A DNA stretch of 64,000 nt from positions 1 to 64,000 of the forward strand of contig PLXE01000104.1 in the NCBI GenBank assembly GCA_003151335.1, written 5' to 3'. Origin of the DNA: Acidobacteriaceae bacterium (GTDB taxonomy: Bacteria > Acidobacteriota > Terriglobia > Terriglobales > Acidobacteriaceae). Made by a program: the position numbers and the translations under genes. Under the pieces are notes generated by a model. That model saw only the letters and a program-made list of their open reading frames with translations. It was not told the DNA's origin and ran no database searches. This document shows positions 31,684 through 37,422 of the stretch, in pieces; positions within the stretch are counted from its first letter, which is position 1; every line of letters starts with the position of its first letter.

Positions 31684-32078
31684 TTGCTATTTTCAAACCC
31701 CACCGTGTAGCGCAATTTCTTCAACCGACCGGCCAATCTGTGACGATCATGCGGGAAACGGCTGCTGCCCCGTTGCCCTGACAGTCACATGTCACAAGCG
31801 ATTGTGATCTGTGTACTTGTTGGATGTGCGGTGGGAGTGTTCCGCTGGAGTGTATCTGGAGTAAAACCTTGACTGCCGCGACCATCCCAGAACGTCCCGG
31901 AGCGCTAAACATGAGGGTTCCCCGCAATTTAGCTGATCACCTGGTTAGGTGACGGAGGACACTCACGCAAGTGCGGGCAAGGGATAAGGGGCAGGGCAGG
32001 GTTTCCACCCGGAAGCGCGTTGCACGCGCAATCCGGCCGTATGACACGGGGATATGATTTGAAGTACAGGGGGTCGTC
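31684..32078 (+). other. Long leader or spacer before the Crp/Fnr gene
   Basis: About 395 non-coding bases. A symmetrical TCACA-AGCGAT-TGTGA (31794-31809 region) and several isolated TGTGA half-sites occur, but no correctly oriented GTGA-N6-TCAC palindrome was found here. No ORF of interest was seen. Confidence 0.4.
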
Positions 32079-32801
32079 GTGCTTACACCATATGGCTTGG
32101 ACATCATAGAAAGCTGCCTGGCCTGCAAGATGCGGGCCGAACACATATTTTGCGATCTTCCACCGGCGGCATTGCAGACCTTTGAATCCGTCAAATACGC
32201 TACTGCCTACCCGAAGGGCGCGGTGTTGTTCGTCGAGGGCCAGACGCCGCGCGGCATTTTTGTGTTGTGCAAAGGCCGCGTCAAACTCTCCATCTGCTCC
32301 ACCGACGGCAAGACGCTGATCTTGAAGATCGCCGAACCGGGAGAGGTGCTGGGCCTCAGCGCCACGGTGAGCGGCAAGCCCTACGAGCTGACCGCCGAGA
32401 CCGTCGATCCTTGCCAGGTGAACTTCGTCAAGCGCGAAGACTTCCTGCGTTTTCTCAAGGAACACGCCGATGCCTGCCTGCGGGTAGCCGAGCAATTGAG
32501 CGAAAAGTACAACACCGCGTGCCGCGAAATTCGCTCGCTCGGTCTTTCGCACTCCGCAGCCGAGAAATTGGCGAAGCTGCTGTTGGAGTGGAGTGCCAAG
32601 AACGGCGAAGCCGCGAAAGCGGAGCCGCGGGTGAAGCTGGCCCTGACGCATGAGGAGATCGCGCAGATGATTGGCACCTCCCGTGAGACCGTAACGCGTT
32701 TGTTTGCCGATTTGAAACGGCGCCAGATTGTACAGGCAAAAGGCTCAACTCTCCTGATCCGCAACAAGGCAGCGCTGAAGGCACTGGCCATTACGCAGTG
32801 A
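32079..32801 (+). CDS. Crp/Fnr-family regulator with CRP-like recognition helix
   Basis: The GTG-started protein has 240 residues. A cysteine motif CX2CX8C (CLACKMRAEHIFC, about 13-25) precedes the cyclic-nucleotide-binding-type beta-roll (about 30-140), the long dimer helix, and an intact winged helix (about 185-235). The recognition helix reads TSRETVTRLFADLK; RETVxR is the same as in E. coli CRP, which reads GTGA half-sites, whereas FNR uses a different helix and TTGAT. Four GTGA-N6-TCAC palindromes lie 140-900 bases downstream. The three clustered N-terminal cysteines hint at an Fe-S cluster or thiol switch. It is followed by an HTH-less paralogue. Confidence 0.88.
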   Translation: MLTPYGLDIIESCLACKMRAEHIFCDLPPAALQTFESVKYATAYPKGAVLFVEGQTPRGIFVLCKGRVKLSICSTDGKTLILKIAEPGEVLGLSATVSGKPYELTAETVDPCQVNFVKREDFLRFLKEHADACLRVAEQLSEKYNTACREIRSLGLSHSAAEKLAKLLLEWSAKNGEAAKAEPRVKLALTHEEIAQMIGTSRETVTRLFADLKRRQIVQAKGSTLLIRNKAALKALAITQ

Positions 32802-32941
32802 GCTAAAGGGTTGTGATTACTGCCGATTGCGGCCTCCGCACTGGCACGTCCGGACGTGGATTGAGTGCTTCGGCTGCCATTCCAAATCCAATCTGCGAAG
32901 AGCAATCGACCCGCCTGGTGTGAACAAGGTCACGGAAATCA

Positions 32942-32955
32942 GTGACTGCAATCAC
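32942..32955. promoter_or_regulatory. CRP-type site upstream of the HTH-less paralogue
   Basis: GTGA-CTGCAA-TCAC is a perfect core palindrome. Its centre lies about 42 bases upstream of the start site predicted from a TATTAA -10 box (32979-32984), the spacing of a class II activator. Confidence 0.75.
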
Positions 32956-32991
32956 TGCATTCGAAGGGGGCGGAGACGTATTAACTCAATC

Positions 32992-33501
32992 ATGGAGAGC
33001 ATGATTCAGTCGAGTTGCTTGACCTGCGATTTCCGTCCCGACCGGCTCTTTTGCGACATGCCCGCGGAGTCGTTGAGAACTTTCGACGAGATCAAATCGC
33101 TCACCGCTTACCCCAGGAGCACGGTCCTGTTCGCCGAGGGGCGGCCGGTCCGCGGCATTTATATTTTGTGCGATGGCCGGGCCAAGCTGTCCATTTGCTC
33201 CGATACCGGAAAACGGCTGACCTTGCGCATCGCCGGCCCTGGAGAAGTGCTGGGACTGGGGGCTGCCCTGTCCAATACCCCTTACGAGGTCACGGCAGAA
33301 TTGCTGGACCACTCGCAAGTCGTTTTCGTGCGCAGAAAAGATCTGCTGAAGTTCTTGCGGGAACATCGCGAGGCTTGCCTGCAAATCGTGCGTATGTTGA
33401 GTCAGGACCTGCATGGGGCCTACGAGCGCGTCCGTACCATTGGCATGATACGCACCCGCCGGCCGCGCATCATGTTCCGGCCCCGTGCCTTGCTGGTCTA
33501 A
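32992..33501 (+). CDS. HTH-less Crp/Fnr paralogue
   Basis: The start is at 32992 or at the ATG 9 bases later, which has GGAG in front. About 169 residues contain the same CX2CX8C motif (CLTCDFRPDRLFC), a complete beta-roll (about 25-125) and the start of the dimer helix. After VRTIGM the protein ends in a short basic tail (RTRRPRIMFRPRALLV), so the winged helix is missing. No HTH is found in other frames before a strong terminator 19 bases downstream, so it is a clean truncated paralogue rather than a simple frameshift. It may act by dimerising with the full-length regulator, or bind ligand only. Confidence 0.8.
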   Translation: MESMIQSSCLTCDFRPDRLFCDMPAESLRTFDEIKSLTAYPRSTVLFAEGRPVRGIYILCDGRAKLSICSDTGKRLTLRIAGPGEVLGLGAALSNTPYEVTAELLDHSQVVFVRRKDLLKFLREHREACLQIVRMLSQDLHGAYERVRTIGMIRTRRPRIMFRPRALLV

Positions 33502-33519
33502 GCCAGGAGTTACCCCTTG

Positions 33520-33548
33520 GCCCGCGATATTCTCGCGGGCTTTTTGTT
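33520..33548 (+). terminator. Intrinsic terminator after the HTH-less paralogue
   Basis: An 8-bp GC-rich stem (GCCCGCGA / TCGCGGGC) with a 5-nt loop is followed by TTTTTGTTT. Confidence 0.85.
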
Positions 33549-33606
33549 TGGAGCGCGCACGCTAACCGGCACTCCCATGCTTCATTCCTCAATGGGCCTC
33601 CGGTTG

Positions 33607-33620
33607 GTGATACCGCTCAC
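33607..33620. promoter_or_regulatory. CRP-type site 1 of the cytochrome promoter
   Basis: GTGA-TACCGC-TCAC. Its centre is 41 bp upstream of the next site, close to four helical turns. Confidence 0.65.
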
Positions 33621-33646
33621 CTCTTGCGGTGAGGAGCGCCCCGGGG

Positions 33647-33662
33647 TGTGACCGCAATCACA
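33647..33662. promoter_or_regulatory. CRP-type site 2 of the cytochrome promoter
   Basis: TGTGA-CCGCAA-TCACA is a perfect match to the full E. coli CRP consensus TGTGA-N6-TCACA. Confidence 0.8.
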
Positions 33663-33669
33663 CCCGCCC

Positions 33670-33683
33670 GTGAGTGCACTCAC
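33670..33683. promoter_or_regulatory. CRP-type site 3 of the cytochrome promoter
   Basis: GTGA-GTGCAC-TCAC, a fully symmetrical palindrome centred 22 bp (about two turns) downstream of site 2. Confidence 0.75.
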
Positions 33684-33711
33684 TGCCCCTCCGCGCCCTC
33701 ATCGGCGATGG

Positions 33712-33717
33712 TTATAA
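33712..33717 (+). promoter_or_regulatory. -10 element of the cytochrome promoter
   Basis: TATAAG follows the three CRP-type sites, with no recognisable -35 hexamer at the proper distance, as expected for an activator-dependent promoter. The start site would be near 33724, giving a leader of about 36 bases. Confidence 0.5.
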
Positions 33718-33759
33718 GTGACGCGACAGCTGACGCGTCCGGCGAAAGCGAGGGTTGCG

Positions 33760-35733
33760 GTGAAGCGTTGCGGTATGGTTCTGTTTGTTGCCTTGCTGCT
33801 CGGCACGGGGGCGATGGCCAAGTCCGCTCCCAAGATGAGCAACGAGGACTGCCTGGCTTGCCATAACGACTCCACTCTCAGCAAAGAGGAGAACGGCAAA
33901 CCAGTCAGCTTGCACGTCGATGACGCGAAGTTCAAGGCCTCAATTCACAGCGTCTTCGGTTGCACCGATTGCCACAAAGACATCCAGGCATTCCCCCACG
34001 ATCCCACGCCCGCGAAGCCGGTATGCGTTACCTGCCATGCCGACCAGCAAACGGCCTACGAGCATGGTGTTCATGCCAAGGCGGCTGCGGCAGGTAACGC
34101 CAATGTCGCGAAATGCCAGGACTGCCATGGCAGCGTGCATGAAATTCTGCCGGCCAGCGATCCCAAGTCAAAAGTAGCGCGGGGCAACATTCCGCAAACC
34201 TGCGGCGCCTGCCACGGACAAAAATTCGTCATGGCATCGAGCGGCATCAGCTCCGCTCCCTTCAACTCGTACCAGCAAAGTGTTCACGGTAAGGCCGTGG
34301 CTGCCGGTTCCGGCAAGGCTGCGGTGTGCACGGATTGTCACGGTGAGCACGATATTCTGGCCGCCACCAATCCCAAGTCGCCGATCAGCAAATTCAACGT
34401 TCCCGTAACCTGCGCCAAGTGTCACGACAATGTCCGGCAGGAGTACGTGCAAAGCATCCACGGCCAGGCGATCGCGCGCGGCAACTGGCAGGCGCCCGTG
34501 TGCACCGACTGCCACGGCATTCACACCATCAAGGCCCCCACGGACCCCAGTTCCTCGGTGGCGTCGGCGAATGTCGGCAGCGATTGTGCGCAGTGCCATG
34601 GCAGCGTGCGGCTTTCCAACGAGTTTGGCATGCCTTCGGGCCAGGTCAACACCTACCTGTCCAGCTATCACGGCATGGCATCGAAGATGGGTTCAACGAC
34701 GGTGGCCAATTGCGCCAGTTGCCACGGGGTGCATAACATTCTGCCTTCCCGCGATCCGCGCTCCACCATCAATCATGCCAACCTGGCCAAGACCTGCGGG
34801 CAATGTCATCCTGGGGCCAACGAGAAATTCATCAGCTTCAAGGTGCATTCTGACGGCGTAGCGAAAGCCGACTTCAGCAGCAAGGTGATTGGCTATATCA
34901 GCAAGTTCTATATCTGGATGATCATCGGCGTCATCGGTGGCATGGTGCTGCATAATCTGATCGTCTTCCGCAAGAAGCTCATCTTGCACCGCATCGGACA
35001 GCCCCGCATTTTGTTCCGCATGACGCGGGGACAGCGGGTGCAGCATATTATCCTGCTCGGCAGCTTCTTCACGCTGGTGCTGACCGGCTTTGCCTTGCGC
35101 TATCCGTCATCGTGGCTGGGTACGTTGTTCGTCAACGAAGCAGTGCGCAGCATTGTCCATCGAGTGGCCGGAGTGGTGCTGATCGCGGTCAGCTTGTTCC
35201 ATCTGTGGTATGTAGTCAGGACCCCGGATGGCCGCCGCCTGATCAAGGACATGCTGCCCGACTGGAAGGACGTCACCGACGTACGTGACGCATTCCGCTA
35301 CTACCTGGGTTATAGCGACCAGCGTCCGTTGTTCCGCCGCTTCACCTATGCCGAGAAGGCCGAGTACTGGGCGTTAGTGTGGGGCATGTTCGTGATGGCC
35401 AACACCGGATTGATGGTGTGGTTTAAAGTGGGGGTGGGCGAAAGAGTGCCGGGGTGGTGGATCGATGTCGCGCTCGCCATCCACTGGTATGAAGCCATAC
35501 TCGCCACCTTGGCCATTATCGTATGGCATTTCTATGGAGTGATATTCGACCCCGATGCCTATCCCATGAATTGGGCTTGGTATGATGGCAAGATGTCGGT
35601 TGAGGCCTACGAGCATGAGCACGCTCTCGATCTGCTTGCGATTGAGCGGGCCACGGGCTCGGAGGAAGAAGAAACCGAGCCGGTCGAGGCGGCCGTGAAG
35701 GAGCAAGAGGAGACGGTCGCCAGCAAGAAGTAG
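33760..35733 (+). CDS. 11-haem cytochrome c fused to a cytochrome b-type membrane domain
   Basis: The GTG at 33760 is preferred: GAGGG lies 5 bases upstream and it yields a signal peptide starting with Lys-Arg; a GTG at 33718 would overlap the -10 box. The 657-residue product has eleven CxxCH motifs (CLACH, CTDCH, CVTCH, CQDCH, CGACH, CTDCH, CAKCH, CTDCH, CAQCH, CASCH, CGQCH) in the first 350 residues, many with a conserved distal histidine such as SVHG or SIHG. The C-terminal part has about five membrane helices with histidines (b561/formate dehydrogenase gamma type), followed by a Glu-rich tail. It should carry electrons between the quinone pool and periplasmic haems. CRP-type sites in the promoter point to control by the upstream regulator. 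Confidence 0.88.
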   Translation: MKRCGMVLFVALLLGTGAMAKSAPKMSNEDCLACHNDSTLSKEENGKPVSLHVDDAKFKASIHSVFGCTDCHKDIQAFPHDPTPAKPVCVTCHADQQTAYEHGVHAKAAAAGNANVAKCQDCHGSVHEILPASDPKSKVARGNIPQTCGACHGQKFVMASSGISSAPFNSYQQSVHGKAVAAGSGKAAVCTDCHGEHDILAATNPKSPISKFNVPVTCAKCHDNVRQEYVQSIHGQAIARGNWQAPVCTDCHGIHTIKAPTDPSSSVASANVGSDCAQCHGSVRLSNEFGMPSGQVNTYLSSYHGMASKMGSTTVANCASCHGVHNILPSRDPRSTINHANLAKTCGQCHPGANEKFISFKVHSDGVAKADFSSKVIGYISKFYIWMIIGVIGGMVLHNLIVFRKKLILHRIGQPRILFRMTRGQRVQHIILLGSFFTLVLTGFALRYPSSWLGTLFVNEAVRSIVHRVAGVVLIAVSLFHLWYVVRTPDGRRLIKDMLPDWKDVTDVRDAFRYYLGYSDQRPLFRRFTYAEKAEYWALVWGMFVMANTGLMVWFKVGVGERVPGWWIDVALAIHWYEAILATLAIIVWHFYGVIFDPDAYPMNWAWYDGKMSVEAYEHEHALDLLAIERATGSEEEETEPVEAAVKEQEETVASKK

Positions 35734-35883: not shown

Positions 35884-37422
35884 ATGACTGAGGACACGCA
35901 GAGGGTGGATCCTCTACGCGATCATCCGCCAGTTTCGCAAAATCTCATTCGCAATCCCCTCAGCCTGATCGGCCTGGCGCTGGCCGGCGTCGCGGTCGCC
36001 AACATCGTTCTGCTTGTTCTCATTGACGTCCTTGCCAGCCGCTCATCTCCCTACATAGGCGTTCTCGCTTACATGGTGGCGCCGGCATTCCTGGTTCTGG
36101 GACTCATTCTGGTCCCCATCGGAATGGTGATCGAGCGTCGTCGTCGGCTTCACGCCGTAGGTGCGCCACCCCATTTTCCGAGTCTCGATCTCAACAATCC
36201 CGCGCAACGCAGCACGTTTGCCTTCCTGCTCAGCTTTGTGGTGATCTTCGCGCTGGTCAGTTCCGTCGGCAGCTACAAGGCCTACGAGTTCACCGATTCA
36301 GTGGATTTCTGCGGCCAGTTGTGCCATACCGTTATGCATCCCGAATTCACCGCGTATGAGGCCTCGCCGCACGCGCGCGTGGCTTGTGTCGAATGTCACG
36401 TCGGGTCGGGTGCGAGTTGGTACGTGAAGTCCAAGCTGTCGGGCATGCGGCAGGTTTACTACACCGCTTTGGGCACCTATCCCCGTCCCATCCCCACCCC
36501 AGTGCATAATCTTCGCCCCGCGCAGCAAACCTGCGAGCAGTGCCACTGGCCGAGGAAATTCTGGGGGGCGCAGCTCAAGACCTTCACCCATTATGGCGAC
36601 GATGAGCAGAATACGCCGCGCGTCGTCCGCATGCTGATGAAGGTCGGTGGCGGCGATCCCCGACTCGGACAGGCCGGGGAAGGCATCCACTGGCACATGA
36701 ACATCGCCAACAAGGTCACTTACATTGCCAGCGACGAACAGCGGCAGGTGATTCCCTGGGTGCGCATAGAAGACAAGAATGGCCGGGTGGCCGAGTACCT
36801 GGCGAAAGACGCCTCCCTCACTCAGGCGCAGATTGACAAAGCCGATAAGCGCCGCATGGACTGCATCGACTGCCACAACCGCCCGTCGCATATCTACGTG
36901 CCACCCGATGCCTCCGTGGATCAGGCGATTACCGGGCGCGCCATCGATGCCACGCTGCCATTCATCAAGCAGCAGGGTGTCGCGGTGCTGACCGCCGACT
37001 ACAAAACCTCTGACGAGGCGCGAAACGCGATTGCCACCAACATTACAAAGTTCTACCAGGACAAGTATCCGCAAATCGTGTCGGCCAAGCCGGACAGCGT
37101 CAAGGGTGCGGTGGTCGAACTGCAGCGCATCTACAGCACCACCTTCTTTCCCTACATGAAGGTGAACTGGAAGACGCATCCCAATAACATCGGGCACATG
37201 TACTATCAGGGCTGTTTCCGCTGCCACGATGGCAACCACGTAAGCAAGGACGGCAAGGTCATCAGCAAAGACTGCAACTCCTGCCATACGGTGATGGATC
37301 AGCAGGAAAGTGGCACGCAGATCGCGGCGGTGCCAGCTCAAACCTTCAAGCACCCGGTTGACATCGGAGACCTGACCGGAGTGAACTGCTCCGATTGCCA
37401 CAGCGGAGGCGTCGGGCCGTAG
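35884..37422 (+). CDS. NapC/NirT-like multihaem cytochrome c
   Basis: The protein has 512 residues. Three hydrophobic helices in the first 140 residues anchor it in the membrane. The first haem site is CGQLCH (CX3CH spacing) followed by CVECH, CEQCH, CIDCH, CFRCH, CNSCH and CSDCH, giving seven potential haems. The VDFCGQLCHTVMHPEF ... HARVACVECHVG region is the NapC/NrfH-type signature. Such proteins oxidise menaquinol and pass electrons to periplasmic reductases. It lies 150 bases after the 11-haem cytochrome and is probably in the same respiratory unit. No terminal reductase gene is adjacent, so the acceptor is unknown. Confidence 0.88.
   Translation: MTEDTQRVDPLRDHPPVSQNLIRNPLSLIGLALAGVAVANIVLLVLIDVLASRSSPYIGVLAYMVAPAFLVLGLILVPIGMVIERRRRLHAVGAPPHFPSLDLNNPAQRSTFAFLLSFVVIFALVSSVGSYKAYEFTDSVDFCGQLCHTVMHPEFTAYEASPHARVACVECHVGSGASWYVKSKLSGMRQVYYTALGTYPRPIPTPVHNLRPAQQTCEQCHWPRKFWGAQLKTFTHYGDDEQNTPRVVRMLMKVGGGDPRLGQAGEGIHWHMNIANKVTYIASDEQRQVIPWVRIEDKNGRVAEYLAKDASLTQAQIDKADKRRMDCIDCHNRPSHIYVPPDASVDQAITGRAIDATLPFIKQQGVAVLTADYKTSDEARNAIATNITKFYQDKYPQIVSAKPDSVKGAVVELQRIYSTTFFPYMKVNWKTHPNNIGHMYYQGCFRCHDGNHVSKDGKVISKDCNSCHTVMDQQESGTQIAAVPAQTFKHPVDIGDLTGVNCSDCHSGGVGP

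Follow-up and report, generated by a model that had tools for sequence, protein, structure and literature searches.

The closest described systems are found among regulators of the Crp/Fnr superfamily. Escherichia coli CRP reads GTGA-N6-TCAC palindromes with an RE..R recognition helix, and at its class II promoters the palindrome is centred near -41.5. FNR is a [4Fe-4S] oxygen sensor with three N-terminal cysteines and respiratory targets. The available parts of two accounts of HcpR from Desulfovibrio (PMC545781, PMC1274295) describe an FNR-like protein with Arg180 and a CRP-like box, TTGTGA-N6-TCACAA, that controls an energy-metabolism regulon, and one of them (PMC1274295) relates residues R180/E181 of CRP to motif positions G3/A6 by correlation. 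Each of these systems has likenesses to a locus in positions 1 to 64,000 of contig PLXE01000104.1 from an Acidobacteriaceae bacterium (GenBank assembly GCA_003151335.1), a stretch referred to here as the window. The locus encodes a full-length Crp/Fnr-type regulator, P0001 (32079..32801, + strand, 240 aa), a paralogue without the helix-turn-helix (HTH) domain, P0002 (32992..33501, + strand, 169 aa), and an 11-haem cytochrome c with a C-terminal cytochrome b561 domain (33760..35733, + strand). The original prediction for this DNA was a local circuit in which P0001 acts on its two neighbours through plain CRP-type boxes. The reading favored here, with a probability of about 0.68, is that an FNR-like activator family acts at composite class II operators with an HTH-less subunit as feedback damper.

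The window belongs to a 4.65 Mb genome (G000), and motif counts in this genome were compared with a reversed-pattern control. The composite TCAC-N8-GTGA-N6-TCAC, a palindrome with a TCAC half-site upstream, has 53 matches on both strands (51 distinct palindromes) versus 1 for the control. Allowing the half-site spacing to vary from N0 to N30 gave 88 matches, with 53 at N8 and 35 at the remaining 30 spacings together. All 53 composites are located outside called genes, as defined by a gene caller that overlooks short or weakly coding genes such as P0002 and the sensor gene on contig C73. The ten-base motif TGTGA-N6-TCACA occurs at 25 places versus 1 for the control, and all 25 are also outside called genes. 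These counts replace both the local circuit, which was too narrow for a regulon of dozens of promoters, and the plain CRP-type box, since the operator combines a palindrome with a half-site. The eight-base GTGA-N6-TCAC motif has 190 matches versus 39 for the control, but it also exceeds the control in genomes without a regulator match (74/6 in G060, 74/15 in G057 and 102/44 in G054) and was therefore set aside as proof, being a weak genome-wide statistic. The longer patterns count 0 vs 0 in G060. The TCAC-N8-GTGA element without a palindrome was found 16 times in stretches picked around sites rather than sampled at random, where other spacings gave 0-7 except N1 with 12, and it is considered a separate operator only where conservation supports it.

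The position of the composite relative to the promoter was read from -10-like hexamers (4/6 matches to TATAAT). These peak at offset 49 from the composite start with 17 of 53 against a mean of 1.3 per offset; none of the 94 offsets besides this one attained 7, and the maximum in the upstream control was 4. This peak places the palindrome centre ~42 bp 5' of the transcription start, which is the class II position, with the half-site upstream. A second palindrome would require GTGA at a further 10 bases upstream. This outer half is near background in the 45 non-double composites (12, 11, 16 and 12 matches of 45), and true double palindromes account for 8 composite entries at 4 places, two of them inside the window. 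The outer half is a full GTGA in 6/6 HTH-less promoters from the window genus. Among 17 HTH-less promoters not matched to that genus it is GTG followed by a base other than A in 12 and GTGA in 0. We read this pattern as two side-by-side dimers with a putatively weak outer contact. The composites are also enriched in GC right after the palindrome (offsets 27-28) and in G at 34-36 (33/53 at 35), positions that separate the palindrome from the -10. Three composite promoters are nearly identical (C75:91471, C91:161953 and C106:38168, at loci L138, L139 and L146), and the genes after two of them encode Ig-like or InlB-type repeats. They appear to represent a gene family whose duplication has taken the operator with it.

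The HTH-less paralogue, rather than the cytochrome, appears from these sequences to be the firmest target of the regulon. A protein-profile search of named genome contigs used one peptide pattern, so relatives without that pattern escape it, and made no use of DNA sites. The 35 loci recovered are from Acidobacteriota metagenome-assembled genomes with the exception of L184 (Jeotgalibacillus), which encodes an unrelated long protein. HTH-less genes on an open frame were found at 23 loci (L157 has an internal gap) and full-length regulators at 10, and L156 is cut by the contig end; seven of the 35 loci, and six of the 23, come from the window genus. A composite is present upstream of 23/23 HTH-less genes vs 0/10 full-length matches, which supports the original proposal of the paralogue as a target and makes it the most conserved one. 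A full-length HTH open reading frame (ORF) of the family lies upstream in 20/23 HTH-less loci. The palindrome centre is 41.5-46.5 bp 5' of the match start in 20 of the 23, and in L163, L170 and L176 an ATG 9-18 bases before the match start puts the centre at 40.5-41.5 bp. Three more sensor-only genes are present in G000, at C69:19231 (L099:2232-2669), C32:1458 (L096:1021-1458) and C73:36774 (L234, C73:36774-37199). Each has a composite 42.5-43.5 bp before its ATG, and all three are missing from the HTH_Crp_2 matches of the genome. The mirror image, a 99-aa open frame with the HTH part alone, occurs at L094:3765-4064 (contig C34) and may be a remnant.

The same design is found in the window. 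Five GTGA-N6-TCAC palindromes lie between the regulator and the cytochrome (32920, 32942, 33607, 33648 and 33670; span 32920-33683). The four predicted originally were all recovered; the fifth, GTGAACAAGGTCAC at 32920..32933, had gone unnoticed and is the distal site of the paralogue promoter. The region 32000-33800 thus contains 5 palindromes against a mean of 0.04 and a maximum of 1 in 300 dinucleotide-keeping shuffles, consistent with the clustering being highly non-random as claimed. The whole window has 7 against a shuffle mean of 0.98, and 0/100 shuffles attained 7. Within the promoters, neighbouring sites start 22 bp apart (32920/32942 and 33648/33670) or 41 bp apart (33607/33648), the two values noted before, and both promoters hold one palindrome pair spaced exactly 22 bp. 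In the paralogue promoter, the palindrome at 32942..32955 is centred 43.5 bp 5' of the ATG at 32992, a class II-like position that is conserved in relatives. The earlier figure of about -42 for this site holds approximately as a distance from the start codon, not from the transcription start. This palindrome forms a composite at 32930..32955 (+ strand), which together with the reverse copy at 32920-32945 makes two full palindromes 22 bp apart. The candidate -10, TATTAA (32979..32984, + strand), is 7 bases 5' of the ATG, which suggests a leaderless or nearly leaderless mRNA, and other HTH-less promoters have an A+T-rich stretch, often TAT, at the same place. A candidate terminator follows the gene in the gap before the cytochrome, where an inverted repeat (GCCCGCGA...TCGCGGGC) precedes a T-rich run (33520..33549, + strand). 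The cytochrome promoter contains palindromes at 33607..33620 (reverse composite 33607-33632), at 33648..33661, where the single full TGTGA-N6-TCACA expected from the prediction is located (33647-33662), and at 33670..33683, a perfect 14-bp palindrome (GTGAGTGCACTCAC) 22 bp past 33648. The composite ahead of the cytochrome is at 33658..33683 (+ strand) with a reverse partner at 33648-33673. The candidate -10, TATAAG (33713..33718, + strand), is in a partly conserved block six bases beyond the usual composite-to--10 distance, and class II geometry is therefore uncertain for the cytochrome. The composites, the fifth palindrome and two conserved everted elements 5' of the regulator all go beyond the original prediction.

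Composite density tracks the regulator. Density against the best P0001-match E-value gave a Spearman coefficient of 0.89 across 61 genomes (the window's own and 60 relatives) and the same value, 0.89, when each genus in the family was represented by one genome (n=29). Binned by best E-value, with the bins leaving out the other eight members of the window genus, genomes had 7-54 composites below 1e-110 (10 genomes), 0-21 between 1e-110 and 1e-50 (19 genomes) and 0-2 above 1e-50 (24 genomes).

P0001 has the domain order of the Crp/Fnr superfamily, a cNMP-binding-like domain (cNMP_binding, PF00027, 2.5e-18) followed by HTH_Crp (HTH_Crp_2, PF13545, 2.5e-18), and also matches Crp. The AlphaFold2 model has a predicted local distance difference test score (pLDDT) of 81. 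The ratio of nonsynonymous to synonymous substitution rates (dN/dS) is 0.01-0.07 wherever a value was obtained (9 of 11 comparisons). The predicted RETVxR recognition helix reads SRETVTR, with R202/E203 as the counterparts of CRP R180/E181. An RE..R helix with GTGA-N6-TCAC sites is the CRP-type combination, and neither the RETVTR helix nor the GTGA motif fits FNR-type recognition of TTGAT. The sensor residues point elsewhere. An arginine of CRP, with a serine or threonine, binds the cyclic AMP (cAMP) phosphate, and P0001 has Tyr102-Glu103 opposite the Arg-Thr of MtbCRP. The missing arginine argues against cAMP as the signal; Glu103 is invariant and Tyr102 nearly invariant among 24 homologues. 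P0001 has an N-terminal C13-x2-C16-x8-C25 motif plus Cys64 and Cys112. C13, C16, C25 and C64 are invariant in 24/24 full-length homologues (alignment A2), and C112, which lies in ET-xxx-C and presumably corresponds to FNR Cys122, is present in 19/24. P0001 is likely an FNR-like redox or gas sensor, and the cysteines may hold an iron-sulphur cluster. P0002 matches only PF00027 in Pfam and is a truncated member of the superfamily. Its AlphaFold2 model (pLDDT 79) shows a sensor domain of Crp/Fnr type and, at 126-155, an intact C-helix, the dimerisation helix.

The composites precede a set of genes rich in respiratory functions. A called gene lies <=700 bp downstream of 37 of the 48 composites outside the window, and Pfam was scanned for 36 of these nearest genes (one 60-aa frame was excluded). 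Eleven of the 36 encode cytochromes (4), ResB, a POR subunit, an Sdh cytochrome subunit, hemerythrin, Oxidored_q6, lactate permease and a radical SAM protein, and 2/36 encode HTH-less sensors. Other targets include CstA, a universal stress protein, glutamate dehydrogenase, transketolase, alcohol dehydrogenase, an extracytoplasmic-function sigma factor and proteins with Ig-like or InlB-type repeats. No hcp-type family is present among the 36, and no search aimed at hcp was made. Sites of the TGTGA-N6-TCACA set also precede an Oxidored_q6 (nuoB-like) gene and, ~910 bp downstream, a hemA gene. The window cytochrome was the second target proposed originally, with its 11 haems borne out by 11 CXXCH motifs. 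Sites are kept in 8/8 loci examined in the genus including the window (seven with three palindromes, L042 with one); same-genus locus L040 was left out, as its contig starts 382 bp upstream of the match. Beyond the genus, a composite was found at 3/13 loci and a palindrome alone at 2/13, in a count that excludes eight weaker or partial matches (L057-L064). Cytochrome control is therefore likely in the genus and not general, and the proposed test of sites before orthologous cytochromes came out favorably within the genus and unfavorably at 8/13 loci beyond it. G000 has a second multihaem cytochrome locus (L090), a relative of the one in the window, with a palindrome at C1:37717-37730 and a composite at C1:37828-37853 upstream. 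Directly after the 11-haem cytochrome, window positions 35884-37422 encode a NapC/NirT-like region in a protein with 6 CXXCH.

The regulator gene is preceded by a different arrangement. There is no full palindrome in the 400 bp before it in G000. An everted TCAC-N8-GTGA element, TCACAAGCGATTGTGA, lies at 31792..31807, ~280 bp before the regulator start, and a composite with a degenerate third half (TCAC-N8-GTGA-N6-nCAC; 31937..31962, + strand; everted part 31937-31952) is ~136 bp before it. TCAC and GTGA of both elements are kept in 7/7 aligned same-genus loci (window included) with a diverging N8 spacer, as is the CAC of the third half of the 31937 element. Two same-genus loci outside the alignment, L005 and L008, have one element each; L005 keeps TCAC-N8-GTGA at the 31937 place, and the 31792 element was not seen at its place in either. 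In 12/20 other loci with a start found, ordinary palindromes are located 5' of the regulator (L015-L019, L021, L022, L024-L026, L028 and L030). Identical copies of TCACAACCGGTTGTGA occur at C20:2275-2290 (L091) and C14:9777-9792 (L092), ~205-210 bp before two close regulator paralogues, and a TCACAA-N4-TTGTGA element before the window regulator resembles this sequence.

Several results weigh against an FNR-like activator with a composite regulon. The correlation of density with regulator similarity carries no phylogeny correction. The -10 peak is limited to 17/53 composites, and no offset attained 7 under the stricter TAxxxT criterion. No called gene is located <=700 bp downstream of 11/48 outside-window composites, 7/36 scanned targets have no Pfam family and several lack an obvious link to respiration. 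Of the 13 cytochrome loci outside the genus, 8 have neither composite nor palindrome within 450 bp. Five of 24 full-length homologues (L022, L023, L024, L025 and L030) lack C112, the fourth FNR-like cysteine. The recognition helix is common to five paralogues and so does not single out P0001 as the binder. Among the 15 HTH_Crp_2 matches in G000, RETVTR is present in five full-length CxxC-type proteins (C103:32079, which is P0001, C20:2492, C14:9988, C103:64678 and C34:46522) plus one HTH fragment; C1:133258 has RELVSR and the other matches differ. The sites act like regulatory elements of a Crp/Fnr protein with an RE..R helix, as originally claimed, and P0001 is one of several candidate binders. 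The composites may be read by another CxxC-type RETVTR member such as C103:64678, or by several interchangeably with the neighbour as one reader, to which we give slightly less than even odds. C103:64678 is 66% identical to P0001 and conserved across the genus, relatives with 65-68% identity occur in 8/9 same-genus genomes including the window's own, and G033 has 21 composites with best P0001 matches only 61-62% identical. The regulator nearest the HTH-less genes is, however, of the P0001 type (family HTH ORF upstream in 20/23), and composite density follows similarity to P0001.

The role of the HTH-less protein and the reader of the half-site were weighed in the same way. Loss of the HTH, absence of the fourth cysteine in 16/16 aligned HTH-less proteins and loss of the N-terminal cysteines in 4/16 (alignment A1) would fit a functionless decaying duplicate. 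This reading is rejected as highly improbable: the dN/dS of P0002 spans 0.08-0.19 (10 of 11 comparisons yielded a value), indicating purifying selection, the gene is retained at many loci with an exactly placed operator, and G000 has more HTH-less sensor genes with the same promoter design. It would survive this conservation only if overlapping features were what selection maintains. A full-length/HTH-less heterodimer might instead read the half-site, with the empty subunit leaving the outer half unread and the operator sensing the protein ratio. The near-background outer GTGA in the 45 non-double composites agrees with this. So does the composite/palindrome ratio, which is higher in 13 genera with an HTH-less gene vs 12 without (Mann-Whitney p 0.00017, or p 0.006 when three weak cases are counted positive; genera classed by open-frame length, G026 with 0 of 0 left out), although regulator similarity and phylogeny are confounding factors here. 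G014 has 22 composites and no HTH-less match, its three best A1 matches being full length and two weak ones sitting in open frames of 284 and 228 aa, and the GTG + not-A outer half in 12/17 non-genus HTH-less promoters implies that this half is partly read. The heterodimer as necessary cause of the half-site is weakened by both observations, and we consider the heterodimer reading of the half-site improbable. Rex operators (TTGTGAA-N4-TTCACAA), bound by an NADH-sensing repressor unrelated to the neighbouring gene, are compatible with GTGA-N6-TCAC according to the S. aureus consensus in the available part of PMC2883068. The A required after GTGA occurs in 1/53 composites (C 24, T 20, G 8), T precedes TCAC in 4/53, and an N8 half-site at class II distance fits a Crp/Fnr activator. 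Rex is rejected on the motif as the least probable reading, and no search aimed at a rex gene was made.

The favored reading, an FNR-like activator family at composite class II operators, would operate as follows. P0001, a member of this Acidobacteriota family, probably senses through its N-terminal cysteines rather than cAMP, reads GTGA half-sites and, probably with close paralogues that share its helix, controls a regulon rich in respiratory genes by activation rather than repression. The operator would be GTGA-N6-TCAC centred ~42 bp 5' of the transcription start with the TCAC half-site at N8, which would place a second dimer 22 bp (two helical turns) upstream, gripped mainly by its inner half. 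The HTH-less paralogue, a conserved target, most likely forms dimers with the full-length protein and so damps the response in a negative feedback loop; damping by heterodimers is our likeliest guess for its action. A broader Id-like circuit, in which HTH-less subunits made from class II composites heterodimerise, damp the regulator and shift one-and-a-half-site occupancy genome-wide as a tunable respiratory switch, is conceivable at rather long odds.

Acidobacteriota are abundant in soils and peat, and no description of their FNR-type regulation was found in the searched open-access literature. An uncultured lineage of this phylum would have a one-and-a-half-site element in some fifty control regions, among them the one of a conserved shortened regulator copy that probably damps the response. 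A defined 12-base operator with fixed geometry would allow the respiratory regulon of this mostly uncultured group to be recognised purely from sequence, and an HTH-less Crp/Fnr subunit that is conserved and has an operator of its own is unusual among regulatory parts. The system shares with E. coli CRP the palindrome, the RE..R helix and the class II centre, and differs from it in Tyr102 in place of the MtbCRP arginine, the N-terminal cysteines, the N8 half-site operator and the HTH-less partner. It shares with FNR three N-terminal cysteines, usually a fourth at ET-xxx-C, and respiratory targets; the cysteine spacing is C-x2-C-x8-C here vs C-x2-C-x5-C, the motif GTGA vs TTGAT and the fourth cysteine missing in 5/24. 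Eukaryotic Id-type helix-loop-helix proteins dimerise without binding DNA and act in feedback; they belong to an unrelated family and offer an analogy only. The FNR-like character, CRP-like box and energy-metabolism regulon of HcpR are matched here, but an HTH-less partner and an N8 composite are not mentioned in the available parts of its account (PMC545781, PMC1274295). Herbaspirillum Fnr1/Fnr3, in the part of PMC5934665 available, form Crp/Fnr heterodimers via the dimerisation helix on hybrid half-sites. Both of those partners bind DNA, whereas one partner of the putative pair here has no DNA-binding domain. Neither an HTH-less Crp/Fnr partner nor an N8 composite was described in the titles and abstract starts of the open-access matches listed. 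The new part of the Acidobacteriota system is the composite operator together with its conserved HTH-less partner.

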